Below, in pieces: positions 24,840 through 57,311 of a DNA stretch of 62,505 nt. The DNA lies in the NCBI GenBank assembly GCA_902781895.1, contig CACZLA010000018.1, positions 1-62,505 of the forward strand, read 5' to 3'. Below the pieces are notes generated by a model. That model was not told the DNA's origin. It searched no databases and saw only the letters and a list, made by a program, of their open reading frames with translations. Position 1 is the first letter of the stretch; each line of letters opens with the position of its first letter. The DNA comes from an uncultured Lachnospiraceae bacterium. Lineage in GTDB: Bacteria > Bacillota > Clostridia > Lachnospirales > Lachnospiraceae. Position numbers and translations under genes: made by a program.

Positions 24840-26396
24840 ATGAGAAGATTTATTTTTACAGCAAAGAATATCGGACGTGAGCGTTACCTGACCTATACAA
24901 TGGGTGAAGGAATGGATGTTGATGAGGATGTTCTTGATTATTGTGAAGATAATGAAATGCCGGAAGTCCTTGATATCATATATGAAGAAGATGATGATTT
25001 TGACTATCTGACATATGATGTAACAGGACTGACATCATTGGAAACATATACTCAGAATGTTATAAACAGAGAAAAGGTATTCAAGATTCTGAGAAATGTT
25101 TCACTTGGGATGATAAGCATAAAGGAGTATGCACTTCCTCTTTCATACATTATCCTTAACAAGGGATATATGTATATAAATGAGGAAACTCTTGATATAC
25201 AGTTCTTATATCTTCCTGTTGAAGGTGAAGCATCAGTATCAACTGAGTTTAAGAGCTTTGTAAGGCAGCTGATGGCCGGAATGAAATATGATGTAGATGA
25301 AGATGTATCATATGTAGGACAGCTTCTTACATATATAAACGGAGATTCATTTAACCTCAGAGGACTTATCGGTCTTACAGAAGCAATGATGCAGGATGCC
25401 GGAATATCTTATTCTGAAGAAGAGAGTATAGCTACTGAGGACGGAGCTGAGATTGTAGATAACGTTGCAACTGAGGAAGAAGATAATAGACCGGATGACT
25501 CAACGGATGTTTTGAGAGATCTCCAGGGTGAAGACGGAAAGCTTCCTGAAATAGGTGATGATGAGGAAGACGATATTGATCTGGAAGCTGTTGAAGCTGC
25601 TATAAAGGAAGAGGAAGCAAAGACTGCAGCAAAAGCTGAAGAGGAAAAAGCGGCAAAGGTTGACGAGGCTGTTGAAGAAATCGAGGGAGAACCGGATGAA
25701 CCTGTTCATGAAGGAATCAGAATAAAGACTGAAAGAGAACAGGAGCATACAGAATCCATAGAGGATATTAAGGCAAGACTCAATGAGATAGTCGGAACTG
25801 CTCCTAAAAAGCCTTCAAAGGGTTCAGCAAATGAGAGCAATGCGGATAGTAAACCTGTGAGAGTCAGCAGAGTTGCAATGCTGAAAGCCGCTGAAGAGGC
25901 TATAGAGGAAGAGGATGCAGCCGCTGCTGAGGCAGAAGCTGAAGAGTCTAACGATAAGAAAGCATCTGAGAAAAAGGATTCAAAGAAAGATTCCAAGAAG
26001 GATGCGGCAAAGAAGGATTCTGCTGATAAGAAAGAGCCTGCAGCAAAGAAGGATGCGGTTATTGATAATACCATTCTCGGAAGTACAGGAACTCTCAAGA
26101 TCAATCCTTACCTTATCAGAGTAAATACTGAAGAAAGAATAATGATCAACAAGCCGGTATTTAAAATAGGCAAGGCAAGCCGAGGCGTTGATTATCGTGT
26201 AAACGGAAACGGTGCAATAAGCCGTCAGCATGCTATTATTCTTCATAAGGGTGACGAATACTTCATTAAGGATAACAAGTCCACCAATCATACATATGTT
26301 AATGATGTTGAAGTAAAGGATGAGGAAGAGGTGGCACTCAAGGATAACAGCAAGATAAAGCTGGGCGATGAGGAGTTTATATTCAAAGTCGGTTAA
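24840..26396 (+). CDS. FHA-domain protein with DUF6382-like N-terminal domain
   Basis: A 518-residue protein with no signal peptide or membrane segment. Residues 1-195 form a folded domain resembling the DUF6382 group that often precedes FHA domains in Firmicutes; the neighbour at 26489 has a related one. Residues 196-420 are an acidic then Lys/Ala/Asp-rich low-complexity linker (KKDSKKDSKKDAAKKDS). The last 95 residues are an FHA domain, which binds phosphothreonine: FKIGKASRG, then AISRQHAII and DNKSTNHTYVND. The linker carries STDVLRD (Thr222), matching motifs repeated in the membrane protein at 31818. It opens a cluster with a second FHA protein, a PP2C phosphatase and a Ser/Thr kinase. 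AGGAGG lies about eleven bases before the ATG. Confidence 0.88.
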   Translation: MRRFIFTAKNIGRERYLTYTMGEGMDVDEDVLDYCEDNEMPEVLDIIYEEDDDFDYLTYDVTGLTSLETYTQNVINREKVFKILRNVSLGMISIKEYALPLSYIILNKGYMYINEETLDIQFLYLPVEGEASVSTEFKSFVRQLMAGMKYDVDEDVSYVGQLLTYINGDSFNLRGLIGLTEAMMQDAGISYSEEESIATEDGAEIVDNVATEEEDNRPDDSTDVLRDLQGEDGKLPEIGDDEEDDIDLEAVEAAIKEEEAKTAAKAEEEKAAKVDEAVEEIEGEPDEPVHEGIRIKTEREQEHTESIEDIKARLNEIVGTAPKKPSKGSANESNADSKPVRVSRVAMLKAAEEAIEEEDAAAAEAEAEESNDKKASEKKDSKKDSKKDAAKKDSADKKEPAAKKDAVIDNTILGSTGTLKINPYLIRVNTEERIMINKPVFKIGKASRGVDYRVNGNGAISRQHAIILHKGDEYFIKDNKSTNHTYVNDVEVKDEEEVALKDNSKIKLGDEEFIFKVG

Positions 26397-26441: not shown

Positions 26442-26488
26442 TGTGATTAAAGAATTAGGTATATTTTTAAGGAAATTTGGGGGCAAAA

Positions 26489-28842
26489 ATGGAAAAAAAG
26501 AATGTAATATTTGATTCAAGCGGAAACAGTGTAACAATGAGATATGAGCTGACATCAACAGATGTTCTTGACGATACAGCTCTTGGCAGACTTAATGGCA
26601 ATCTGATAGAAATGACTGCTCCGATCTATTACAGAGAAGATGGTTCTACCCGTGCTGTATATTCTCAGATACCACGTACGGTTCAGTTGTCATCTTTCCT
26701 GAAGAAGGTATTATCCAAGGGTGAAGCTCTTACGATAATAAAAAATCTGGCTACCGGAATGGATATCGGAAAACACAGTATTCCCGTAAGCTATATTATT
26801 AAGGATGCTGATTGTGTTTATATAGATGAGCAGACGCTTGAGACATATGTTTACATTATTCCAATTAAGAATCAGAACATGGATGTTTCTGAACTTCCCG
26901 GATTCTTTAGAAGTGTTATATCGCATATGAGATTCCGTGAAGAAGATAAGGACAATTATGTGGCCAGACTTCTCACGAAAGTAAATTCGGATAGATTTTC
27001 GTTAAGTGATTTTATGGTTCTGGTAACAGAGCTTCTTGTTGAGGTCGGAGATGCACAGTTGGCAGGAGTTTCCCGTCCCGGCGCTAAGGTTGACAAGGTT
27101 GGTGTCATGAGAAACAGAGCAGGACAGATGCCGCAGCAGCCGATGGGTGGTCCTATACCACCAATGGGTCAGCCGATGGCACCGCAGCAGCCGATGGGTC
27201 AGCCGATGGCACCGCAGCAGCCGATGGGCCAGCCAATGCCACAGCAGCCTGTACAGAGGTTTGATCCTATGACAGGAAAACCGATGGGTCAGCCGCAGGC
27301 ACCGGAAGCACCGAAGGCACCAGTGCCACCAATGGGTCAGCCAATGCCACAGCAGCCTGTACAGAGATTTGATCCGATGACAGGAAAACCGATGGGTCAG
27401 CCACAGCGGAGATGCCGAAAGCACCAGAAGCACCGAAGGCACCAGTGCCACCAATGGGTCAGCCGATGCCACAGCAGCCTGTACAGAGATTTGATCCGAT
27501 GACAGGAAAACCGATGGGTCAGCCACAGGCACCGGAAGCACCAAAGGCACCGGAGATGCCGAAAGCCCCAGTACCGCCAGTACCACCGATGGAAACAGCA
27601 CCACAGGCGCCAAAGGCACCAGAGATGCCGAAAGCCCCGGTACCACCAGTACCACCGATGGGAACAGCACCACAGGCGCCAAAGGCACCAGAGATGCCGA
27701 AAGCCCCAGTACCACCAGTACCACCAATGGGACAGCCGCAGGCACCGCAGCAGCCGGTAAGAAGATTCGATCCAATGACGGGTAAGCCGATAGAAGATAC
27801 ACCGAAAGCACCGGAAGCGCCAAAAGCACCTGAGATGCCAAAGGCACCAGAAGTTCCAAAAGCCCCGGTACCACCAGTACCGCCGATGGGAACAGCGCCG
27901 CAGGTACCACCACAGCCTGTAAGAAAATTCGATCCAATGACGGGTAAGCCGATAGAAGATACACCGAAAGCACCTGAGATGCCAAAGGCACCAGTTCCGC
28001 CAGTAGGAACAGTACCGGAAGCACCGAAGGCTCCGGAAATGCCAAAGGCCCCGGAAGCGCCAAAGGCACCGGAAGTGCCAAAAGCCCCGGTACCACCGAT
28101 GGGAACAGAACCGAAGGCACCGGAAGCACCAAAGGCACCGGAAATGCCGAAAGCCCCGGTACCACCGATGGGAACAGTACCACAGGCGCCACAGCAGCCG
28201 GTAAGAAGATTCGATCCAATGACGGGTAAGCCGATAGAAGATACACCGAAGGCTCCGGAAATGCCAAAGGCACCGGAAGCACCAAAGGCACCAGAGATGC
28301 CGAAAACCCCGGTACCACCGATGGGAACAGCACCACAGGCTCCTGAAGTACCAAAGGCACCAGAGATGCCGAAAGCACCGGAAGCACCAAAGGCACCGGA
28401 AGCACCTAAAGCACCGGAAGCACCTAAAGCACCTAAAGCACCGGAGATGGATGATCAGGGTGATATGGTTTCTCTTGATACAATTATGAGAGAGGCTGAA
28501 GAAGCAGCTCCGGCCCCGGCCCCAGTGGTAGAGCAAAGCGTTCCACGTCCTCATTTTGTAAGAAAGAAGACGGGTGAAAAGATATATATCACTAAAGATG
28601 AGTTTAAAATAGGTAAGTCTAAGGTTCACGCAGACTATGCTCTTGAAAATAATTCTGCAATAAGCAGGGTTCATGTAATTATCATTCGCAGAAATGGGGT
28701 AAATTATCTAAAGGATAATGATTCTACAAACGGAACATTTGTAGATGGTGAAAAACTTGAGCCGGGCAGAGAAGTTCTGCTTAAAGCTAATATGGAAGTG
28801 AAGTTCGGAGATGAAGACTTCGTATTCCTCCTCAGGGACTAA
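26489..28842 (+). pseudogene. Second FHA-domain protein, split by a frameshift in its Pro-rich repeat
   Basis: The reading frame from ATG 26489 (after GGGGG) encodes a DUF6382-like N-terminal domain of about 200 residues, then Pro/Gln/Met-rich repeats (PMGQPMAPQQ, QRFDPMTGKPMGQPQ). Near 27406 it shifts: the frame runs into RRCRKHQKHRR and stops at 27502. Another frame, open by 27412, continues the same repeats (MPKAPEAPKAP, RFDPMTGKPIEDTP) and ends at 28842 in an intact FHA domain with FKIGKSKVHAD, ISRVHVIIIRR and DSTNGTFVDGEKL. Compared with neighbouring copies, four bases (or 22, counting one more unit) are missing after ccacag. So this is one gene with a net -1 lesion. It may be a real inactivation, a phase-variable contraction, or an assembly error in low-complexity DNA. 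The C-terminal part has no clear ribosome binding site. Confidence 0.85.
27121..28440 (+). repeat. Pro/Lys/Ala-coding repeat tract of the second FHA gene
   Basis: About 1.3 kb of imperfect tandem repeats made of units coding PKAPE, PEMPKAP, VPPMGTA and the longer RFDPMTGKP block. RFDPMTGKP blocks start near 27259, 27370, 27490, 27766, 27925 and 28207. Many units are near identical in DNA, which favours slipped replication and recombination and makes assembly hard. Confidence 0.9.
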
Positions 28843-28867: not shown

Positions 28868-29638
28868 ATGGAATACGCTGCAACATATAATACTGATATT
28901 GGTATTAGAAAAAGTACAAATCAGGACTCGACAGCAATTCGTATTATAGATACACCGGATGGACAGGTGGCATTTGCTATAGTATGTGATGGTATGGGTG
29001 GTCTTGCAAAAGGTGAACTGGCATCAAAGGAAGTAATTACATCCTTCTGTCGATGGTTTGATGAAGAATTTACAACACAGGTTATAGAACATTCATTTTC
29101 GCCTCTCAGACTTAGAGATGACTGGAGTAGTATTATCCAGACAGAAAACCGACTTCTGGGAATATATGGTTCGGATAACAATATAATGCTTGGAACTACG
29201 GTTTCAGCAATACTGATGTACAAGGATGAGTTCTATATAGTACACGTGGGTGATAGTCGTGTGTACGAGCTTCATAACTCTGTGAGAATACTTACAAAGG
29301 ATCAGACCTTTGTAGCCAGAGAGATAGCGGCCGGAAGAATGACTCCGGAGGAAGCAAGAATAGATCCGAGAAGAAGTGTTCTTCTTCAGTGCGTCGGAGC
29401 ATCTGCAACTGTAACCCCTGATTTTCTGAAGGGTAAGGTTCAGAGAAATGCAGTATATTTTGTTTGTTCAGATGGTTTCAGACATCAGATAACCGAAGAT
29501 GAAATAATGGAAAAACTGGGACCGAACAATACATCCAATATGGAAGAATTGAAATATGGATGTGTATATCTGACAGAGCTGGTTAAGAACCGTAAAGAAA
29601 GCGATAATATTACAGTAGCAGCAATAAAGACTAAGTGA
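28868..29638 (+). CDS. PP2C-family Ser/Thr protein phosphatase
   Basis: A 256-residue cytoplasmic metal-dependent phosphatase of the Stp/PrpC type, which would remove phosphate from proteins modified by the kinase encoded next. The family motifs are all present: IRKSTNQDS (motif 1, where Q replaces the usual E of RxxNED), VCDGMGGLAKGE near residue 40 (metal-binding Asp and the DGMGG signature), HVGDSRVYEL near 126, CSDGFRHQI and the C-terminal ESDNITVAAI with the metal-binding Asp-Asn. The ATG at 28868 follows GAGAAGGG. It lies 25 bases after the FHA gene and 16 bases before the kinase gene, the usual phosphatase-kinase order in Firmicutes. Confidence 0.94.
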   Translation: MEYAATYNTDIGIRKSTNQDSTAIRIIDTPDGQVAFAIVCDGMGGLAKGELASKEVITSFCRWFDEEFTTQVIEHSFSPLRLRDDWSSIIQTENRLLGIYGSDNNIMLGTTVSAILMYKDEFYIVHVGDSRVYELHNSVRILTKDQTFVAREIAAGRMTPEEARIDPRRSVLLQCVGASATVTPDFLKGKVQRNAVYFVCSDGFRHQITEDEIMEKLGPNNTSNMEELKYGCVYLTELVKNRKESDNITVAAIKTK

Positions 29639-29654: not shown

Positions 29655-31814
29655 ATGTTAAGAGAAGGTACCGTCTTAGACGAAAAATATGAGATCCTTC
29701 GACAGATAGGTGAAGGTGGAATGTCCATCGTATATCTGGCGCGTAACAACCGCATGAATATGCAGCTTGCGGTTAAGGAAATCAAAAATGATGGTTCAAA
29801 AAGTACAGAGATCCTCCTTAAGGGACTTGAGCGTGAAGCAAATATCCTTAAGGATGTCGATCATCCTGTTATTCCGAGGATTATCGATATAGTTAAACAC
29901 GCAGGAACCATTTGCGTTGTTATGGACTTCATAGAAGGAGAGAACCTGGCAGATAAGCTGAAAGAGGTTGGAAAGTTTTCACAGGAACAGGTTATTGAGT
30001 GGGGACTTGAACTGGCTTCTGCTCTTGAATACCTGCATTCCATGAATCCTCCTATCATATATCGTGATATGAAGCCTTCAAACGTAATGCTTAAGCCTGA
30101 CGGCGGTGTTAAGCTGATCGACTTTGGTACAGCTAAGACATATGATATAGAAAATAATGCAGATACAACAGCTCTCGGTACCAGAGGTTATGCGGCTCCG
30201 GAGCAGTTTGGTGATGCTCAGGGACGTGGTATCTATAAAACAGATGCCCGTACAGATATTTACAATCTCGGTGCAACACTCTATCACATGGTTACGGGAA
30301 AGAATCCTCAGGAGCCTCCATATGAAATGGTTCCTATCAGAGAGATCGACCCGATGCTTTCAACAGGACTTGAGTCTATCATACTTAAATGTACAAAGCC
30401 GAATCCCAATGAAAGATATCAGTCATGTTCAGAGCTTATTTATGCGCTTGAGCATTATACAGAGCTTGATGACAGCTATAAGAAAGCAAATAAGAAAAAG
30501 GTTACTATATTTGGTATCACAGTTGCCCTTACTATCGTTTCTGTCATAATTGCCCTTATCGGTAAGGCAGGAATGGACAGAATAGCCGGGGATAACTATA
30601 TAGCTTATATAGAAAAAGGAAATGAGTTTAAAACCGACGGACTGTATTCGGCTGCCGCAACTGAATACAAAAGAGCCTTTGAGCTTAACGGAGAAGATGC
30701 AGAAGCATATATCAAGTACATCGATACATATATTGATTCTTCAAAAGATATCGATGCAAACGGAAATACAGAGCTGAAGGTTGAGGACGGACTCAATACA
30801 ATCGCAAATCGTGTAAAGAATAAATATGAAAACGTTGACAAAAATGATGAGGTTCTTTTCAAATTAGGTCTTACATATTTTACTGAGCTTAATGATTACA
30901 GTGCTGCAGCAAAGTATTTCAAAATGGTAGATAAGACAGATGAACAATATGGCGAGCTGTCTGATTATTACGGTAGTATAGCTCTCATACTTTCAAGTAC
31001 AAACGTAAATGTTAACGAGCTTATTGATAATGTTAACGGTTTTGCTTCATATAACACAGGAAGCTTCTCAAACGATAAGGGACAGAAGTTTGAAAATTAC
31101 AAGACTGTGGGAAAGATATATGTAACATATATCAATACACCGGGAGTTCCCGAGAAGGCAGAGGAAATAATGACACAGGCAGTAAAAGATCTGGGTGATT
31201 ATACCGGAGAAGATATGGCAGATTATTTCTTCGAATATAATTGTGATCTGGCTGAGATATATTATTCACTGGCTGAAAAGGATTCCAGCGAAGCAAACTA
31301 TAAGCTTGCACTCAGTTATTATGAGGAAGTTATCGACCAGATAGAAGGAAAGGTAAATGTAAGCGAAGGTGGAGACGGGGCAAGTGCTCAGGCACTTATC
31401 CAGTCATATGTAAATTACAAGTGCAGGATTGCCGATATATATGCAAAACTTGGAGATTCTGATTCTGCTATCAAGACTTATGAAGAAACAGAAAAAGCCA
31501 TGGGCGGCGGAAATGCAAATGCTGTTAAGGTATATTCGGAGCATTTGAATTACGTATATGCAAGCTACGAAGCTAAACAGAAGGATCCGGGCAAGTGGAC
31601 AAACGACCAGAAGGAAAATATTCTGAAAATATACAATGAAGGTAATAAGATAGAAGGTATAGACAGTAATCCTAACTGGATAAAGAGATCGTCGGTCATG
31701 GAAGGACTGGAGGACGGTTCAATAAATGACGGCAAAGAAGAAGAAAAAGAAGACGCCTCTGAGGATACCGAAGGTACTACTGAAGATAAAGGTGCAGATG
31801 GAGAGGAGGAGTAA
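29655..31814 (+). CDS. Transmembrane Ser/Thr protein kinase with an outer TPR-like region
   Basis: A 719-residue kinase. The cytoplasmic kinase domain (about 10-270) has IGEGGMSIVYLAR (Gly loop), catalytic Lys41, YRDMKPSNVML with Asp138 (Tyr replaces the common His of HRD), DFG at 156-158 and GYAAPEQFGD with the activation-loop threonines before it (TTALGTRG). A membrane segment follows at about 282-303. The outer 415 residues are helical with TPR-like pairs (AATEYKRAFELNG, YYEEVIDQI), in place of the PASTA repeats of PrkC, so it probably senses a protein or wall component. The end is acidic. It is flanked by its phosphatase and, three bases later, by a membrane protein rich in TDVL-type motifs, a likely substrate. 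Transcription is probably joint from the first FHA gene on. Confidence 0.93.
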   Translation: MLREGTVLDEKYEILRQIGEGGMSIVYLARNNRMNMQLAVKEIKNDGSKSTEILLKGLEREANILKDVDHPVIPRIIDIVKHAGTICVVMDFIEGENLADKLKEVGKFSQEQVIEWGLELASALEYLHSMNPPIIYRDMKPSNVMLKPDGGVKLIDFGTAKTYDIENNADTTALGTRGYAAPEQFGDAQGRGIYKTDARTDIYNLGATLYHMVTGKNPQEPPYEMVPIREIDPMLSTGLESIILKCTKPNPNERYQSCSELIYALEHYTELDDSYKKANKKKVTIFGITVALTIVSVIIALIGKAGMDRIAGDNYIAYIEKGNEFKTDGLYSAAATEYKRAFELNGEDAEAYIKYIDTYIDSSKDIDANGNTELKVEDGLNTIANRVKNKYENVDKNDEVLFKLGLTYFTELNDYSAAAKYFKMVDKTDEQYGELSDYYGSIALILSSTNVNVNELIDNVNGFASYNTGSFSNDKGQKFENYKTVGKIYVTYINTPGVPEKAEEIMTQAVKDLGDYTGEDMADYFFEYNCDLAEIYYSLAEKDSSEANYKLALSYYEEVIDQIEGKVNVSEGGDGASAQALIQSYVNYKCRIADIYAKLGDSDSAIKTYEETEKAMGGGNANAVKVYSEHLNYVYASYEAKQKDPGKWTNDQKENILKIYNEGNKIEGIDSNPNWIKRSSVMEGLEDGSINDGKEEEKEDASEDTEGTTEDKGADGEEE

Positions 31815-31817
31815 GCT

Positions 31818-32732
31818 ATGGGAATATATGACATCATGTTCTACGGTGGACTGATACTCGCTGCTATCTTCCTCATCGCATCAATAGTGATATTCTTTGT
31901 TATGAGGATACCTGATGCATTCGGAGTTGTAACCGGTAGAACACAGAAAAAGGCGATTGAAGAGATAAGAGCCGGAGGACATGCGGCAACAGCAAATAAA
32001 AAGAAGAGGCGAAGCGGAAATATCCAGGCAAGAGATATTGATGTTTCCGAGACCAGAAAGAAATCTTCGAATACAGAGAGTCCGGTTAAACAAAGTTCCG
32101 TGAAGGACAGTACTTCTTCAGACGATATAGCGCGTAAAGCTGCAGAGGATGCTAAAAGAGCTGCTGAAAGTGCTGCTGAGAAGGCGAGAAGAAATCTTGA
32201 AGAAGAGTCAACAGAGGTTCTTACATATAATGAAATGAAAAATAAGGCTGATGCAAGTGAGGACCCCACATCTGTACTGGAGATGGAAAAGGCTACAGAT
32301 ATTCTTTCGCAGGCTGAAGAATACTACGAAGAAGGCAGTAATGAAGATTACGATGATGATGCGGATGCTGCAACAGATGTATTAACATCCAGGGATGCGA
32401 AGGAAGAAGGAAAAGAAAGACCTGAATCATATGATGAATCAGGTGATGAAACGACTGATGTTCTCAGATCAACATCATCAACAGTTACAGGAATGAATAT
32501 GTATGATGATGATCTGGATGAAGAAGCTGATAAGACCGATGTACTCACAGCGGAAATGAGTGGTCTGTCAGATAAAGATGTTTATGGAACCTATAACCCG
32601 GAGACGACATCGGTGCTTAAAAGCGATATGGCACCCGGGAATGATTCGGTTAAACAGGGCGGTGGTCTGGATCAGCCCGGTATTACCGTTATCTACAGCG
32701 AGACTGTCGTCCATACGGATGAGAGTCTATAA
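31818..32732 (+). CDS. Membrane-anchored protein with seven Thr-x-(Val/Ile)-Leu motifs
   Basis: A 304-residue protein of unknown family. Residues 7-29 are a membrane segment (MFYGGLILAAIFLIASIVIFF); the rest is charged, mostly acidic and probably disordered and cytoplasmic, with a basic patch at 44-65 and an Ala/Lys helix near 105-125. The tail repeats a short motif: TEVL (Thr132), TSVL (151), TDIL (160), TDVL (186), TDVL (213), TDVL (240) and TSVL (264), each in an acidic or Ser/Thr context. A TDVL also occurs in the first FHA protein (Thr222). FHA domains bind phosphothreonine and often select a hydrophobic residue three places later, so these look like sites for the upstream kinase that recruit the FHA proteins. 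That is inference; the spacing and repetition are seen. GAGGAGG precedes the ATG, three bases after the kinase stop. Confidence 0.75.
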   Translation: MGIYDIMFYGGLILAAIFLIASIVIFFVMRIPDAFGVVTGRTQKKAIEEIRAGGHAATANKKKRRSGNIQARDIDVSETRKKSSNTESPVKQSSVKDSTSSDDIARKAAEDAKRAAESAAEKARRNLEEESTEVLTYNEMKNKADASEDPTSVLEMEKATDILSQAEEYYEEGSNEDYDDDADAATDVLTSRDAKEEGKERPESYDESGDETTDVLRSTSSTVTGMNMYDDDLDEEADKTDVLTAEMSGLSDKDVYGTYNPETTSVLKSDMAPGNDSVKQGGGLDQPGITVIYSETVVHTDESL

Positions 32733-32749: not shown

Positions 32750-35700
32750 ATGGTTATAAATAAGAAAGGACAGAAAAAGCCGAAGAATCCGCTGTCGATG
32801 AGAATCCTCGCATTTTTCATGGCAGCAGCTATGGCATTTTCGGTTGTTTACTTTAACGACCGGTCTGCAGATGTTGAAGCCACCACTCCTGCAGTAACAG
32901 ATGTAACGGATGACGGTTATATAAATCAGGTTTATAACAATTCGGCGGATTCTGTAAATATCAGTGCTCCGGCAACGGGAATTACTTTTAATGTTCCGGC
33001 TGATGGATCGGAGTCTAGTTTTTGTGGTAAAACTCTGTATACTGATGATGACGGTGCGAGTTATTATTTAGATCCCACCGGTCTTACTGATCCGACAGAA
33101 GTGAATGTCAATGCAAGTTATGAGGTTGTATGGCGTACAGCCCCGGATGGTTCGGGTGATAATCCCGGAACAGTAACTAATGGTAATACTCTTTATGCAT
33201 TTTATCATTATACCGAGTATAGTGACGAATCCGGGCCATATAATCATCTGATTGTTGATATAGCATCTCATGAATATGAATTAGCAAAAACTATAACGAT
33301 CGACACTTATGATCCTGAGCAGTTGGCGTTTGATGCAACTTCAGATCCGGCATCTGTTACAGATATAGATGTAACAGAAACTGACAGTCAGAAGTATTAT
33401 GGTGCTGTTACTTATGAGGTTTCCAGGGATGGCGGAACTGCTTCAGAATTTACATCACTTGAAGGTGTAAATGCTGAAATCAACAAACTTGATGCTGACG
33501 GAACTTACGATATAACAAAGGTGATCAAAGCACCGAGTACAGGTGGCTCTGCAGATTTATTCAGTCAAACCGAATCAGGAACAATTAACAATCATGTTCT
33601 TATGAGCTTCAGTGCGACCTATGATGAGGTTACAATCCCCGGAGATATGACTACAGGTACGTATGCTCTTTCTGTGCCGCAGACCGGAACACTCAGTGCG
33701 TCAAAGGATATAACTGTAAACTTTACAACTGATTCAGAGGTTACTTCTACTATAACAGTAACCGGAACCAGTGGAAGTTATACAGAACCTACAGGCAGTG
33801 GTAATGCTTATTCATTTACTATAAATGCTCCTGCATCAGTAACTCATGATGATAGCATTAGTTTTTCTGTTACAGTTGAAGATAAAGCTACTCCTAAAAA
33901 ATCAGATACATTTACTATAGATGTAAATTACAGTAATCCAAGACCTTCTTTCGCGGAAGAAAAGGTGGATGCTGATACAGTTTCAGATTCATCTACAGTT
34001 ATATATAAAAATAAGACACAGGGCACTGTATCCTATAGCTCAGTGATAAGTATTGAGGATGCTTCTGCATCACTTAGCAATCTTTGGATAGTTAATGCGG
34101 ATAATGCTTCTATTACAAGTAAAGATAGTGGTGATTATTCCTCGGTAGATATAAGTTCATTTACTCCCGGATCAGAAGTATCCGGATATGTTGACCTTAT
34201 TCATGGAACAAACTATATAGCCATGGTTGCCGAGTCAGCTTATGAAGGCGGTACCACAAGCTATGTTGTTCCTTCAAAGGTAGCGCAGGTATTCTATGAT
34301 GATACTGATCCTTATGTAGATGGTGATTTTGCACTTTCTCAGGATTCTGATCCTGTTACAGTAGAGGGATCCGGTAAAAGTTATACAGCAACCGTTACAG
34401 CCATGAAGGATGTGGATTTCGAGTTTAAGGTTGCTGATATGCAGAAGGAACGTGATGACAGCGATTCAGATGGTAGTGGTATTGCATTACTTACTATTGA
34501 TGGAAATGATGTAACCTCAACTATCGCCCCAGACGGAACAGTTAACTATTCTCTTTTAAAAGACACATCCCAGTCAGGCGGCGGAAGTAAGGAAGTAGAA
34601 ATCTACATTGAAGATAATGCAGGAAACTCCGATACATATACTATCACTCTTACATATCTTAATGAGAAGGCAACTATAACAGAGGTATTTAATCCTGATA
34701 CATTTACAGATAATGATTTTGTAAAGTGGAAGGATCTCAGTAATAAAAAGGTAACTGTCACATATACTATCGAAACCATGTTTGAGCTTGAATCAAAAGC
34801 TAACGACGGAATAATCATAGATGTTGACGGTGTTAAGACAAATATTACAGATCAGGCAACAAAATCCGGCTCAGAAGGTGCATGGGTTTATACAGTCACA
34901 TATCAGTATGATGATACACAGTCAAAGGCGGGTTATGTTGTAGCACTGACTGTAAAGAATATTAATGGATGTGAAACCACACATAATACCAAGGTAATAA
35001 GCATCGATATTACCGATCCTACCATAAGTGTTACAGATGGAAACGGAAATCTTATTGATGCAACAAAGTGGTATGATAATCTGGTTCTCAAAGTAACTGT
35101 AGACGATGGAACAGTATCATCCGGAATAGCAAAGACAGTTGCTACCGGAACAGATAAGGATGAATACACAGGATCACCTTTCTATGCAACTGTAAATAAG
35201 TCTACATCGGCAACCGGAACACCGGTTACATTTAAAGCTTATGATGAGGCCGGAAATGAAAGTGCAACATTCAGTGAGACATATAAGGTTGATAAGGATA
35301 AGCCTGTTATCTCACTTAAGGTAGACGGAAAACCGTATTCGGATGTGGATGGAACAGTTGTTTCAGATTCAGATCCTGTAATTGAGTTTTCTGCATCTGA
35401 CAGTCTCAGTGGTCTGTCAGCACCGGGAATGGTTGAACTAAGGATAAACGGAGCAGTTAAGACTACTGATCCTTTCGGAAGCAAAAAGCTTTCCGAGTTA
35501 CTGGGAAGCACACCTGATCCAACAAAGGATTATACAGTTGAGCTTTATGCAAAGGATGCTGTAGGTAATGAAGCATCCTATGAGACAACCTTCAGAGCCG
35601 ATGGTGTGGCACCTGATGTCACGGGAAAGATCGATACAAAGGCGAAGAAGAGTAATCATCCTACATATTTCAATCAGGATGTAACAATATCTGTTACTAT

Positions 35701-38053
35701 CGTTGATTCAAACCTTAAGAGGACAGGCATCAGTGTTACTGACGCAAATGGTCATACTCTGGGAGTTACATGGACACAGAGTGGTACTACCTGGAATGGA
35801 ACCATAAAGGCTTCAAGTGAAGGGGATTATAAGATTACGGTAAAGGCAACAGATGATGGACAGCTTTCAAATTCATGGTCACAGAACTTTACCATTGATA
35901 AGACAGCTCCTGAAGTAACAACTCTTCTTAATGGTGAGGAATATAATCTAACAAACAGCTACCATGGAAAATTAACAACAGGCGTTAACGTTGTTGACAG
36001 CAATGAAGATACTGTAGATGTTCTGATACTAAGAGAGATTCCTTGGGGTGGAACAGAAACCATCAAGAGTTCAGGAAAAGGACCTTTCTATATCAATGAT
36101 GACGGATATTATACTGTTACATATACAGTATCTGATAAGGCAGGTAATGATGTTGAAAAGACTATAGGATTTACAGTAGATGATACAGCACCTGTAAACA
36201 ACCTTTATATTACAACTAATGATCCTGCAAAGATTTCTACATATTATAATAACTATGTAAATGTGGTAAATACATTTACAAGTCGTTCGAGCCAGGAAAA
36301 CTATAGATATGGTCAGTTCTATAATACTGATGTGACCATAGAACTGGGATATTTTGATTACAACCTTAACTGGGTATATGTTACTGACTCAGGTCAGGAG
36401 CTTGCTCCTACATGGACATATAGTGACGGTTATGGAAAAGCAACTATTACTGTTTCTTCTGAAGGATATCATGATATACAGATATGGACAGAAGATATGA
36501 CCGGTAATTCAACAAATGATTCTGATGTAGGAAAGAGACTCAGATTTACTATTGATAAGACTGCGCCGGTTATTTCAACTACTTTGAACGGAGCAGACTA
36601 TTCAGAGGGATCAGGAGTCAGATATCTGAACACTAACGGTTCAGTAGGTGTATCTGTATATGATACAAATGTAGATACAAGTGATCTAAAGAGATATTAT
36701 AAAGAGACACCTCCGGGTGGAGCTGCCAGAACATCAGAGAGTTACATAAATGAAGGAACTGAAACCTATGTAGAGGAAGCTGATTATGAGGTTCAGTATG
36801 TTGCAGTAGATAAGGCTGGAAATATAAGTGCTACAAGAAATGTATATTTCAGAGTAGACAGAACAGCACCTCAGCTGGATATTTCCAATGTTGGAGATAT
36901 AGCTAAGTCAGGTACCGTAAATGTTTCATTCACAGTAAGAGAAGCATTTTACTGGGATATGAGCAAGGTTACGATAAGAATCTACAAGAGAAAAGAGGGT
37001 GGTTCCGAAACTCTTGAGAAGACTATCGAAATGACACCAAAGTCTGCAGCAGATACATCGAGCTATGCATTTTCGGAAGATGCAATATACAGAATAGAGT
37101 TTGAAGCAGAAGATAAGTGTGGAAATAAAGCAAATAAAGAGTATACATTTATCAAGGATGGTACTGCTCCACGTATTATTCTCTCGGGCGTAGGCAACTA
37201 TGATACCACAGATAAAGAGGTTGAGCTTGTTGTAACAGTAGATGAGGAATTCTATTCATCAAATAAGGTAACACTTACAGGTACAAGAATAGATATTGAC
37301 GGAAAGAAGAATCCTATAACATTTAAGGACTTCGTTACTAACAGACAGAAGGTTTCCGAGCTTAAGGAGCTGTTCAATAAAGACGGTATCTATGATATCG
37401 AAGTAACATCAACTGATAAGGCAGGAAACTCATCCAGCAAGAAGGTACATTTCACAATAGACACCACACCTCCTGAGATAGGAGATCTGTCAAAGTATGA
37501 CGGAAAGATGCTTAAGGAATTCAAGTGGGATATTGATCTGGACAAGCTGGTTCGTGATCTTACCGTTTGTGAAATAACACTTTATATGGATGGTGTTGAG
37601 TACGACGGAGTATCACCTATAGAAGATGGTTCACATGTACTTAAGGTTGAAGCTGTTGATGAGATGGGACATAAGTCTTCTAAGGAAGTAACATTTGTTC
37701 TTGATACAAAGGGACCGAACATTATTGTTTCAAATGTTGAAGAAGGAGATAAGTTCTACGAAGAAAGAGAAATCTCAGTTTCAGTACAGCTGGATGAGGA
37801 TGTACTGGATGAGGTAACTCTTAACGGAGAGTCTGTAGCATTATCAAACAATCAGGCAACAATAAAGATTGATAAGAAGGATGACTACACACTTACAGCA
37901 AAAGCTCATGATGAAGCAGGAAATGAGTCATCGATAGATATGGAATTCACTTATGCTTCAGAGGTTAATCTGCTTCTTATCGGAATAATCGCCGGAGCAG
38001 TTATAGTACTTCTTCTGTTAATTCTTCTCATAATGAAGAAACGCAGAGCTTAA
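32750..38053 (+). CDS. Giant Ig-like repeat surface protein with a C-terminal membrane anchor
   Basis: A 1767-residue exported protein, the largest in the window. A signal peptide lies near residues 15-44 (MRILAFFMAAAMAFSVV, with cleavage probably after the AxxEA region). The body is a chain of beta-sandwich modules of about 90-120 residues, each linked by an Ig-like boundary motif: VDKDKPVI, IDKTAPEV, VDDTAPVN, IDKTAPVI, VDRTAPQL, KDGTAPRI, IDTTPPEI and others, at least nine. There is no LPxTG motif; instead the C-terminus has a membrane segment (LLLIGIIAGAVIVLLLLILLIM) and the stop signal KKRRA, leaving five basic residues in the cytoplasm. It could be an adhesin or a mechanical sensor. It ends the kinase/FHA cluster, 17 bases after the TDVL protein, with GGGAGGGAGAG before the ATG. 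Confidence 0.85.
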   Translation: MVINKKGQKKPKNPLSMRILAFFMAAAMAFSVVYFNDRSADVEATTPAVTDVTDDGYINQVYNNSADSVNISAPATGITFNVPADGSESSFCGKTLYTDDDGASYYLDPTGLTDPTEVNVNASYEVVWRTAPDGSGDNPGTVTNGNTLYAFYHYTEYSDESGPYNHLIVDIASHEYELAKTITIDTYDPEQLAFDATSDPASVTDIDVTETDSQKYYGAVTYEVSRDGGTASEFTSLEGVNAEINKLDADGTYDITKVIKAPSTGGSADLFSQTESGTINNHVLMSFSATYDEVTIPGDMTTGTYALSVPQTGTLSASKDITVNFTTDSEVTSTITVTGTSGSYTEPTGSGNAYSFTINAPASVTHDDSISFSVTVEDKATPKKSDTFTIDVNYSNPRPSFAEEKVDADTVSDSSTVIYKNKTQGTVSYSSVISIEDASASLSNLWIVNADNASITSKDSGDYSSVDISSFTPGSEVSGYVDLIHGTNYIAMVAESAYEGGTTSYVVPSKVAQVFYDDTDPYVDGDFALSQDSDPVTVEGSGKSYTATVTAMKDVDFEFKVADMQKERDDSDSDGSGIALLTIDGNDVTSTIAPDGTVNYSLLKDTSQSGGGSKEVEIYIEDNAGNSDTYTITLTYLNEKATITEVFNPDTFTDNDFVKWKDLSNKKVTVTYTIETMFELESKANDGIIIDVDGVKTNITDQATKSGSEGAWVYTVTYQYDDTQSKAGYVVALTVKNINGCETTHNTKVISIDITDPTISVTDGNGNLIDATKWYDNLVLKVTVDDGTVSSGIAKTVATGTDKDEYTGSPFYATVNKSTSATGTPVTFKAYDEAGNESATFSETYKVDKDKPVISLKVDGKPYSDVDGTVVSDSDPVIEFSASDSLSGLSAPGMVELRINGAVKTTDPFGSKKLSELLGSTPDPTKDYTVELYAKDAVGNEASYETTFRADGVAPDVTGKIDTKAKKSNHPTYFNQDVTISVTIVDSNLKRTGISVTDANGHTLGVTWTQSGTTWNGTIKASSEGDYKITVKATDDGQLSNSWSQNFTIDKTAPEVTTLLNGEEYNLTNSYHGKLTTGVNVVDSNEDTVDVLILREIPWGGTETIKSSGKGPFYINDDGYYTVTYTVSDKAGNDVEKTIGFTVDDTAPVNNLYITTNDPAKISTYYNNYVNVVNTFTSRSSQENYRYGQFYNTDVTIELGYFDYNLNWVYVTDSGQELAPTWTYSDGYGKATITVSSEGYHDIQIWTEDMTGNSTNDSDVGKRLRFTIDKTAPVISTTLNGADYSEGSGVRYLNTNGSVGVSVYDTNVDTSDLKRYYKETPPGGAARTSESYINEGTETYVEEADYEVQYVAVDKAGNISATRNVYFRVDRTAPQLDISNVGDIAKSGTVNVSFTVREAFYWDMSKVTIRIYKRKEGGSETLEKTIEMTPKSAADTSSYAFSEDAIYRIEFEAEDKCGNKANKEYTFIKDGTAPRIILSGVGNYDTTDKEVELVVTVDEEFYSSNKVTLTGTRIDIDGKKNPITFKDFVTNRQKVSELKELFNKDGIYDIEVTSTDKAGNSSSKKVHFTIDTTPPEIGDLSKYDGKMLKEFKWDIDLDKLVRDLTVCEITLYMDGVEYDGVSPIEDGSHVLKVEAVDEMGHKSSKEVTFVLDTKGPNIIVSNVEEGDKFYEEREISVSVQLDEDVLDEVTLNGESVALSNNQATIKIDKKDDYTLTAKAHDEAGNESSIDMEFTYASEVNLLLIGIIAGAVIVLLLLILLIMKKRRA

Positions 38054-55235: not shown

Positions 55236-57311
55236 ATGAATAGACGATGTTTGAACTGTATGCATGTATTTCAGGTGCCATCAGAAAGCATAAATGAAAA
55301 CTGTGTATGTCCCTTCTGCGGATTTGTGGAAAATACTCCTCCGCAGGAGGCTATTTACATGCCCGTGGGAGTTGTTATTAAGGACAGGTATGTTATCGGA
55401 ACCGTTATCGGAGCCGGTGGATTCGGAATAACCTACAGAGCCTGGGATCAGGTGCTTGAAAGTGTTGTATGTATAAAGGAATATTTCCCTCATGGTATTG
55501 CCGTCAGAACAACCGAAACAACGGTAAGCGTATATTCTTCGGGAAATATGTCATCCTTCAATAATGGCAAGAACAGATTTCTCAAGGAGGCGAGAAGCCT
55601 TGCGAAGTTCAATTCCGAAGTGGGAACAGTTTCGATTCATGATTTCTTTGAAGCAAATGGTACGGCCTACATAGTCATGGAGTACCTGGAAGGCTGCAAT
55701 ATGAAGGAATACATGAACAGTATGAACAGCCCTTTATCATATGATGATCTGTCAAACATAGCCCTCAGCGTCTGCCATGTTCTGGAAAAGGTACATGGCA
55801 TCGGCCTTATTCACAGAGATATAAGCCCGGATAATATATTCTGTTGTAAGAACGGAGTGATAAAGCTTATCGATTTTGGTGCCGTAAAGCAGGTTGAAGG
55901 TGAAGAGGGACTTTCGGCAACGGTTATTCTGAAGCATGGATTTGCTCCGGTGGAGCAGTATTCAAAGAGCGGGAATATAGGACCGTGGACGGATATCTAT
56001 TCTCTGGCGGCTACACTTTACAAGCTGGCAACAGGTGTTACACCTCCGGAATCCATAGATCGACTGGATACCGACAGGCTTGAGTATCCGGGACGTCTGA
56101 ACCCTCAGCTGCCTATGAGATTTTGTAACGCACTCATGAAAGCACTCTCCATCCAGATAGGAAACAGATATCAGACTGTGGCGGAATTCAGAGCTGCCCT
56201 TACAAATGGACCGGTAGACGATTCCACTGATCTTACTACCACTGTTACTACGGATGTTTATAACAATTTTGCTCCTATAAATAATAATCCGGTTAATATG
56301 CCGAATGATAACTCGGGCTATAGTAACACCGGTTACAATAACACGAGTTACAATAATTCCGGCTTCAATAACACCGGTTTCAACAAAGGCTATGATACCA
56401 CAGGCAATGACAGTAAAAACAACGGGGATGATAACAATAACAAAAAGCTGGTTCTGGTAGTCATTTCCATACTCGGAGCATGTCTTATTGCAGCGGCTGT
56501 TATGATCGTTATCCTCCTTGGGTCTTCAGACGATAAATCGAAAAAAGATGGAAAAACGACTGTGGCTGCTACTGAGGAAGAAACCACTGAGAAAGAAACA
56601 GATGATAAACAGACCACTGAAGCAGAAACTACAGAGGCAGAGACTACTGAAACTGTAACCACAGAAGCTGAAACCACAGAGGCTGAAACTACTGAAGCTG
56701 CGGGCTCCGGAAGTGAGGAGGATCTGTATACTAAGTTTGGCATAGACAGCTCAGATTTAGAGGACTATTCAAACAACCTTGATCCCAATGAGTACCTTTA
56801 TTACAATTCCGGAATCGGAGAATTCTTTTTTAAATATCCCGCACATCTGTTCAACTCCGTATCACTCAGTACGGATCCGGAGGACGGGGAATTTGGAGAT
56901 AATATCCAGAAGGTTACATTTGAAGGAAGTGACGGTGCTGTGCTGATATATACGGTGCAGAGAAGATATGACAATATGTCGGTAGAGGAATACACTGATA
57001 AAATAAATACTGATGAGCATAACAGGTATTATAACTTAAGTGATATACTTGTAAAGTCTGACGGTGACACGGGAAGGATAGTAGTGTCCGGAGATTATGA
57101 TTCTAATCAGACAAAGGTAGTATACGATCTGATAAAAATTGATGATCAGTATGTATACCAGATGCTTTCCATTAAACCAAGTTATAAGGATGAAGACGAA
57201 AGAGTTCAGTATGCTTATGTGACTGAGACCGAATACCGAACCTGTGGTTTTTCGGGATCGACATATACACCTCGTTCATATGAGGAATTTGTAGATTCCG
57301 GTCAGTACTGA
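55236..57311 (+). CDS. Transmembrane Ser/Thr kinase with N-terminal zinc ribbon
   Basis: A 691-residue kinase of a different type from the one at 29655. It starts with a zinc ribbon (CLNC at 5-8, CPFC at 25-28). The kinase domain (about 50-325) has IGAGGFGITYRAW, Lys81, HRDISPDN with Asp195, DFG at 213-215 and HGFAPVEQYSKSG in place of the common APE (here PVE). A Tyr/Asn/Gly-rich linker (GYNNTSYNNSGFNN) leads to a membrane segment near 404-428. Outside comes a Thr/Glu stalk (TTEAETTEAETTETVTTEAE) and a 190-residue outer domain with no known family. Such kinases are often near phosphatases, but none is adjacent here. It sits between hemZ and hisS. Confidence 0.9.
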   Translation: MNRRCLNCMHVFQVPSESINENCVCPFCGFVENTPPQEAIYMPVGVVIKDRYVIGTVIGAGGFGITYRAWDQVLESVVCIKEYFPHGIAVRTTETTVSVYSSGNMSSFNNGKNRFLKEARSLAKFNSEVGTVSIHDFFEANGTAYIVMEYLEGCNMKEYMNSMNSPLSYDDLSNIALSVCHVLEKVHGIGLIHRDISPDNIFCCKNGVIKLIDFGAVKQVEGEEGLSATVILKHGFAPVEQYSKSGNIGPWTDIYSLAATLYKLATGVTPPESIDRLDTDRLEYPGRLNPQLPMRFCNALMKALSIQIGNRYQTVAEFRAALTNGPVDDSTDLTTTVTTDVYNNFAPINNNPVNMPNDNSGYSNTGYNNTSYNNSGFNNTGFNKGYDTTGNDSKNNGDDNNNKKLVLVVISILGACLIAAAVMIVILLGSSDDKSKKDGKTTVAATEEETTEKETDDKQTTEAETTEAETTETVTTEAETTEAETTEAAGSGSEEDLYTKFGIDSSDLEDYSNNLDPNEYLYYNSGIGEFFFKYPAHLFNSVSLSTDPEDGEFGDNIQKVTFEGSDGAVLIYTVQRRYDNMSVEEYTDKINTDEHNRYYNLSDILVKSDGDTGRIVVSGDYDSNQTKVVYDLIKIDDQYVYQMLSIKPSYKDEDERVQYAYVTETEYRTCGFSGSTYTPRSYEEFVDSGQY

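Follow-up and report, generated by a model that had tools for sequence, protein, structure and literature searches.

The ORF at positions 31818-32732 (+) of an uncultured Lachnospiraceae contig encodes a membrane protein of 304 residues, the tail protein, which on the comparisons set out here is likely to be a membrane-tethered, phospho-switchable docking strip for FHA proteins. Its acidic tail carries seven T-x-[VI]-L motifs spanning T132 to L267, and its gene starts three bases past the end of a Ser/Thr kinase ORF (31814), as a preliminary description of this DNA had claimed for both the motifs (at T132, 151, 160, 186, 213, 240 and 264) and the spacing. This interpretation is well supported at the level of sequence; writing by the kinase, binding by the FHA domains and resetting by the PP2C phosphatase are steps that we infer. 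Two findings extend that description: the preference for Thr over Ser, together with the recurrence of the motif in FHA linkers, and a connection with type VII secretion of the T7SSe type. The window referred to below is the whole stretch of 62,505 nucleotides that was analysed, and the features discussed are collected in Table 1.

Table 1. Features of the tail protein and its operon, by window position
Feature	Position	Strand	Remarks
FHA protein 1 (DUF6382 + FHA, TseJ-like)	24840..26396	+	presumed reader; Pfam
TDVL (T222; in STDVL) in FHA protein 1 linker	25503..25514	+	
FHA protein 2	26477..28842	+	two overlapping ORFs in window, 26477-27502 and 27412-28842
PP2C-type phosphatase	28868..29638	+	presumed eraser; PF13672; DGMGG, GDSR, SDG present
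Ser/Thr kinase	29655..31814	+	presumed writer; Pfam; kinase domain in the cytoplasm and TPR-like region outside, with one TM helix; YRDMKPSN, DFG, APE present
Tail protein	31818..32732	+	short N-terminal part and one TM helix; basic juxtamembrane stretch; tail acidic and disordered, bearing seven T-x-[VI]-L motifs; C-terminal peptide conserved
TM helix of tail protein, about residues 12-30	31851..31907	+	hydrophobic stretch then basic residues; AlphaFold2 helix 2-28
Motif 1 TEVL, T132	32211..32222	+	orthologues: T 33/33, L 32/33
Motif 2 TSVL, T151	32268..32279	+	orthologues: T 32/33, L 33/33
Motif 3 TDIL, T160	32295..32306	+	least conserved; T 24/33 (3 gapped), L 23/33 (10 gapped)
Motif 4 TDVL, T186	32373..32384	+	orthologues: T 32/33, L 33/33
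Motif 5 TDVL, T213	32454..32465	+	orthologues: T 32/33, L 32/33
Motif 6 TDVL, T240	32535..32546	+	T 25/33 (5 gapped), L 25/33 (6 gapped)
Motif 7 TSVL, T264	32607..32618	+	T 32/33, L 33/33; T264, V266, L267 invariant in alignment A2 (40 sequences)
C-terminal peptide of tail protein, residues 289-304	32682..32729	+	T296, E302, L304 in 32/32 ungapped orthologues
Large Ig-like protein (TseI-like)	32750..38053	+	Big domains by Pfam; N-terminal signal-like and C-terminal TM segments

The kinase and phosphatase are intact-looking, judged by their catalytic motifs. A phosphatase and two FHA genes had been placed upstream of the kinase in the preliminary description, and Pfam finds all three, the second FHA gene being divided between two overlapping ORFs. 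FHA protein 2 is a single ORF in most relatives whose contig covers the gene, and is also in two ORFs in L044, L110 and L123; the break sits within a Pro/Ala/Lys/Glu-rich repeat, and the split is either a sequencing or assembly error in the repeats or a real change. The search covered 61 genomes, 37 of them from the window's genus; an orthologue of the tail gene is present in 33, all members of that genus, and the four genus genomes without it are 73-87% complete. The kinase lies directly upstream of the tail gene in 36/36 loci of the genus genomes, and PP2C and FHA matches precede it in the 33 orthologue loci wherever the contig reaches. In 48 public loci, which come partly from the same genomes, the order is MltG, FHA1, FHA2, PP2C, kinase, tail and Ig-like, as far as the contigs extend, with HAD, NlpC/P60 and SecDF genes often trailing the Ig-like gene; the tail ORF is recognised in 47 of the 48 (one is cut), and the carriers are uncultured Lachnospiraceae, Eubacterium sp. 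from rumen samples and Eubacterium ruminantium. An Ig-like homologue follows the tail gene in 25/36 genus-genome loci and 41/48 public loci, some of the remainder being cut by a contig end, and one of three paralogues (L036) has no PP2C or FHA match in the 3.3 kb before its kinase, so that the gene order is not strictly invariant. The MltG, NlpC/P60 and SecDF neighbours give a hint of a role at the envelope.

The segment that follows the TM helix (residues 31-66) holds 9 Lys/Arg against 3 Asp/Glu, and by the positive-inside rule the tail is therefore predicted to lie in the cytoplasm, the compartment expected for the kinase and FHA domains. The preliminary description had named motifs outside the membrane as a ground for dropping its proposal, and the prediction does not place them there. 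From residue 76 to the end the protein has a net charge of -35. An AlphaFold2 model built from 40 sequences is confident for a helix at residues 2-28 and shows a weaker second helix at 100-130, with pLDDT below 50 at 179/304 residues, nearly all of them past residue 53. The tail protein matches no family in Pfam (E 0.001) or NCBIfam (E 0.01), and four distant members searched against NCBIfam give matches far below the cut-off only; among 37 relatives searched against Pfam there are matches to six families, one member each, the best being a collagen-repeat match of one low-complexity tail. The C-terminal peptide, whose consensus reads I-x-V-x-Y-S-E-T-x-V-H-T-D-E-S-L, shows roughly the same degree of conservation as the motifs and has similar counterparts at the ends of many distant members; it is possibly a docking site for the kinase.

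The number of motifs far exceeds what the composition of the tail would give. Composition-preserving shuffles of residues 51-304 yield 0.11 T-x-[VI]-L matches where seven are observed, and the runner-up among 42 non-overlapping ORFs of at least 100 aa in the window has three; this is FeoB, a polytopic protein of 663 aa, whose three matches we take as chance. Another 60 kb of the same genome gives a maximum of two per ORF (40 ORFs). In 36 sequences, shuffles predict 4.6 occurrences and 191 are found, 187 of them in the 33 orthologues and four in three paralogues. The motifs also persist while the remainder of the tail drifts, which the preliminary description had proposed as a check on its reading: across the 33 orthologues the commonest residue makes up a mean fraction of 0.91 in the 14 motif Thr and Leu columns and of 0.30 in the 179 other tail columns (Mann-Whitney p 4e-10). 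The alignment was made with MAFFT, which tends to line up motifs, and the raw motif counts are independent of it. Across the orthologues the full set of four Thr codons occurs at every motif site except T240, which has three; this synonymous variety points to selection on the amino acid. Chance and low complexity as the source of the motifs are ruled out by the shuffles, by the codon diversity and by the preference for Thr over Ser described below.

The residue preferences of the motif were examined by scoring every residue X in X-x-[VIL]-L, observed against expected. In the 33 orthologues Thr occurs there 210 times against 7.0 expected and Ser 13 times against 7.2; in 49 distant tails the corresponding values are 132 against 7.3 for Thr and 3 against 6.0 for Ser. 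Ile is also in excess in the orthologues (17 against 3.0), probably through the C-terminal peptide. The excess of T..L pairs peaks at an offset of +3, with 251 against 43 in the genus and 182 against 38 in the distant set; neighbouring offsets are raised too, at +4 in the genus (70 against 43) and at +2 in the distant set (112 against 39), the latter as expected from a frequent Thr at +1. S..L pairs at +3 number 46 against 43 and 42 against 32 in the two sets. Following T-x-[VI], the third residue is Leu in 187 cases in the genus and 93 in the distant tails, with Ile and Val hardly used; His comes second in the genus with 30 cases, probably again from the C-terminal peptide. FHA domains are described in a review as strict in their need for pThr and as having two classes of ligand motif, pTxx[ILV] and pTxx[ED] (PMC8786283). 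Both in its Thr rather than Ser and in its +3 residue, the tail motif is what a ligand of the pTxx[ILV] class would look like, and the earlier suggestion that FHA domains could read phosphothreonine with Leu at +3 fits this class.

The family extends well beyond the genus. A profile search of the order finds it in 48/392 genomes, three of them in the genus, and in 23/172 genera in all. Of the remaining 45 genomes, all except G098 supplied loci to the distant set, which numbers 46 loci from 44 genomes, and the 49 distant tails are those of the 46 loci together with three genus paralogues. Within the stretches fetched, the kinase is adjacent in 44 of the 46 loci, PP2C is present in 41 and an FHA gene in 26; for the 20 loci that have no local FHA gene, 19 are in genomes with FHA domains elsewhere, and G404 has two beyond the Ig-like gene. 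All 23 tail-bearing genomes searched for FHA domains contain them, a weak association between the tail gene and genome-wide FHA content, since the counts come from tail-bearing genomes only. The broader motif T-x-[VIL]-[LFM] occurs at least once in 43 of the 49 distant tails and twice or more in 32, so that most distant relatives, too, have a motif-bearing tail next to this kinase. Three of the six tails without it have T-V-P-L, T-V-D-L, T-V-E-L, T-A-E-L or T-V-Y-[FL] forms, and the other three are short (79-113 aa) and have no T-x-x-[LF]. Homologues next to the kinase and devoid of motifs, which had been named as grounds for abandoning the proposal, therefore do exist, but amount to only these three short proteins among 49 distant sequences. 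A class-wide search of 392 genomes finds the family in 13, four of which are outside the order, and the tails of these four, used in no model, served as a hold-out: in 4/4 PP2C and kinase genes lie directly upstream and the tail has a motif, with five Thr motifs against 0.48 expected (0/1000 shuffles reach five) and no Ser equivalent.

The FHA proteins themselves carry related motifs. The STDVL noted earlier in the first FHA protein is real, at T222. In distant operons, FHA proteins longer than 250 aa have the motif ahead of the C-terminal FHA region in 25/29 cases (Thr 46 against 3.6 expected, Ser 2 against 3.4), the scan covering the 125 residues ahead of the last 95, where the FHA domain usually sits. 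Linkers of FHA protein 1 within the genus have it in 11/26 only, and in these linkers N-, G- and S-x-[VIL]-L likewise exceed expectation; both points count against the docking reading. Both the tail and an FHA linker have T-x-[VILFP]-L at 26 of the 53 loci whose tail is distant or from the hold-out, and at these 26 the residues at -1, +1 and +2 are more alike between tail and linker of the same locus than in shuffled pairings (0.430 against 0.319, p 0.0002; by position 0.0005, 0.009 and 0.05, respectively). Restricting the comparison to one locus per genus (17 loci) gives 0.435 against 0.282 (p 0.0002), or 0.411 against 0.304 minus the most striking locus. This suggests a single recogniser of tail and linker motifs, either the FHA domain or the kinase, and the co-variation could arise partly from a lineage-wide sequence preference or from kinase specificity. 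In an alignment of 26 sequences the FHA domain of FHA protein 1 never varies at S461, R462, H464, S481, T482 or N483. In 26/26 it has a Lys (K445) after the first Gly, where Arg is usual; the Arg in that place is a phosphate contact in FHA domains, and its replacement counts against the docking reading. The AlphaFold2 model of FHA protein 1 has the T222 linker disordered (residues 198-226 with pLDDT below 50), which is neutral on self-binding, and in Foldseek searches it matches the structures of GarA, OdhI and FhaA. The PDB entry that it matches best is 8cba, the N-terminal domain of TraF (E 3e-6, TMt 0.58, rmsd 7.6, 12% identity), presumably on the DUF6382 half of the protein (24840-25430). 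TraF is reported to be a pseudokinase like EssB/YukC (PMC13037476), and the model match is consistent with the idea that DUF6382-FHA proteins may be pseudokinase-FHA fusions.

The best surviving alternative, which we regard as unlikely, is that the motif is mainly a substrate or docking consensus of the kinase, the tail serving as a phosphorylation buffer or kinase positioner and the FHA proteins not being its main readers. No neighbour of the tail gene is as constant as the kinase, which accompanies it in 44/46 distant loci (FHA genes do so in 26/46) and in 36/36 loci of the genus, and a single kinase consensus would also explain the motifs in the FHA linkers. Many bacterial Hanks kinases prefer Thr themselves, which suits this explanation, and the restriction to Thr is therefore not by itself proof of FHA reading. 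Against it, the near-absolute Leu at +3 fits the FHA ligand class, Ser in the distant set does not rise above expectation, and each of the 23 genomes searched encodes FHA domains, as does that of the window.

It is less probable still that some other partner recognises the T-x-[VIL]-L units as short linear motifs without any need for phosphorylation, or that duplication has spread them as low-complexity repeats. The number of T-x-[VIL]-[LFM] motifs does vary from two to nine per genus orthologue, with five or more in 32/33, and the tail with nine (L030 4078-5112) has several of them as near-identical repeated units, which suggests tandem duplication as a route by which motif number grows. Neither version of this explanation accounts readily for the strict use of Thr rather than Ser, for conservation despite synonymous codon changes, for the occurrence of the motifs in non-homologous FHA linkers, or for operon partners that are a kinase and a PP2C phosphatase.

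A link to type VII secretion is provided by the T7SSe of Bacillota, as defined in Garrett et al. 2024 (PMC11217815), which is also the DUF6382 literature that we found. It comprises WXG100 proteins, the ubiquitin-like TseB and the ATPase TseC with FHA, along with the kinase TseD, the PPM phosphatase TseF, the DUF6382-FHA protein TseJ and the Ig-like TseI; two further components, TseH and TseK, are single-TM proteins with short unstructured cytoplasmic parts, and the passages on these two describe topology alone, with a repeated Thr motif unmentioned. The operon in the window and its relatives resemble this system in bringing together a kinase, a PPM phosphatase, a DUF6382-FHA protein and a large Ig-like TM protein, and the window locus differs from it in that the module there has no linked ATPase or WXG100 gene. 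We surveyed 31 tail-bearing genomes, 24 distant and seven from the genus, for WXG100 and FtsK. In 10/31 the coordinates place one or more tail copies, 11 in all, within about 30 kb of a T7SS-type (EssC-type) ATPase on the same contig (G260, G404, G364, G152 with two copies, G345, G360, G039, G390, G380 with one copy of its two, and G009 with its second copy). The other 21 have no T7SS link on the contig of the tail gene, some having T7SS genes on other contigs and some having neither. The row in L196 reads Ig-like, PP2C, kinase, tail, FHA, YukD-like, FtsK-type ATPase and WXG100, the YukD match being weak (E 5e-5, below its cut-off). Since tail copies occur near EssC-type ATPase and WXG100 genes in these 10/31 genomes, the tail protein is probably TseH or TseK, whose published topology it fits.

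We considered whether the operon is part of a local T7SS and reject this for the window and for the complete genus genome G005. No T7SS gene is found among the window ORFs scanned around the operon, and the draft genome of the window has no WXG100 match at E 0.01; its lack of an FtsK/SpoIIIE match at the cut-off says little, as the ordinary FtsK was missed too. G005 has no WXG100 and no T7SS-type ATPase, and its one ordinary-looking FtsK (an 899-aa frame) is 2.1 Mb from the tail gene. WXG100 is absent from five of the seven genus genomes surveyed; in G002 the T7SS genes are about 600 kb or more from the tail gene, and in G009 they adjoin a separate tail paralogue. The module can thus stand alone. 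The homologues near T7SS genes in some relatives might suggest that the tail is simply a structural component of T7SS type (TseH/TseK), its disordered region being inherited in the genus with no part in signalling. We regard this as highly improbable, because the genus motifs are numerous (at least five in 32/33) and strongly constrained, the opposite of decay.

Under the docking-strip reading, the neighbouring TM kinase would phosphorylate the Thr of the T-x-[VIL]-L repeats, and the FHA domains of the operon would bind each pT-x-x-L, as the motif chemistry, the Thr specificity and the shared motif suggest; in T7SS-containing relatives the FHA domain of the secretion ATPase perhaps binds it too. 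Several motif copies would provide avidity and so collect FHA proteins at the membrane, close to the kinase and to the large Ig-like protein of the envelope, and PP2C would erase the mark. The linker motifs of the FHA proteins would probably act as competitors or permit self-binding, in the manner of the GarA/OdhI ETTS motif. Such a switch would assemble or gate secretion in T7SSe clusters, an effect comparable with that of threonine phosphorylation in type VI secretion, and at the window locus, as no type VII genes are linked to it, the same module would have to control another envelope process. More tentatively, and with somewhat less than even confidence, we suggest that a dedicated single-pass protein serves as the bacterial counterpart of a multi-site receptor tail, its main function being to offer a kinase-written pT-x-x-L array that clusters FHA readers. 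It would then be central to phospho-regulation in T7SSe and account for one of the components known there by topology only, and a rumen genus in which some members have no type VII secretion at all would have retained it with its many motifs.

Several known systems share elements of this arrangement. In GarA, a kinase-controlled ETTS phosphorylation motif lies just N-terminal to the FHA domain (PMC12321487). The ETTS of GarA/OdhI resembles the ETTVL motifs that precede the FHA region of FHA proteins at distant loci. GarA is, however, one protein with one motif, whereas here there is a separate membrane protein with up to nine; the Thr motif of GarA/OdhI is N-terminal to an FHA domain in the same protein, and the tail protein has no FHA domain by Pfam. 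For the mycobacterial Rv1747, with PknF and PstP, a review describes in vitro condensation of an FHA-containing membrane protein that is enhanced by phosphorylation and reversed by the phosphatase (PMC9312465). By analogy with this in vitro effect, multiple tethered sites could bring readers together in clusters, although Rv1747 has its FHA domains and linker in one ABC transporter and the readers and ligand strip considered here are separate proteins. In the type VI PpkA-PppA-Fha pathway, as outlined in PMC12607579, a membrane kinase, a phosphatase and an FHA protein control assembly of a secretion machine, and Agrobacterium TssL is a T6SS case of threonine phosphorylation as told in PMC11217815. 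The pathway is like the tail operon in combining a membrane kinase, a phosphatase and an FHA protein, and unlike it in being Gram-negative and serving a different machine. We know of no multi-motif strip in the T6SS pathway.

No description of the tail family was found in the titles and abstract beginnings among the matches listed (for example, the best 12 of 211), the search lying mostly outside subscription literature. The parts and the principle are thus known, and what is new, as far as the searched literature goes, is a separate multi-motif membrane ligand strip. The bacterial FHA cases met in the cited literature involve self-binding or binding within one protein or machine. The sequence evidence here points to a ligand strip that is separate, membrane-anchored and multivalent, with writer, eraser and readers in one operon, and whose distribution runs from the Lachnospiraceae to other orders of the class. 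A T7SSe component so far uncharacterised gains a testable function, and regulatory genes of the T7SSe type can occur without the secretion machine.

Two further loci in the same genome may be mentioned. Positions 55236-57311 of the window encode another protein with a kinase domain; radical SAM and histidyl-tRNA-synthetase-like genes adjoin it, and no FHA match occurs among the neighbours scanned. On another contig (G000 contig C7, 33000-54800; L192-L193) there are twelve FHA matches in about 20 kb, and ORFs in this FHA-rich stretch appear kinase-like and PP2C-like by eye.
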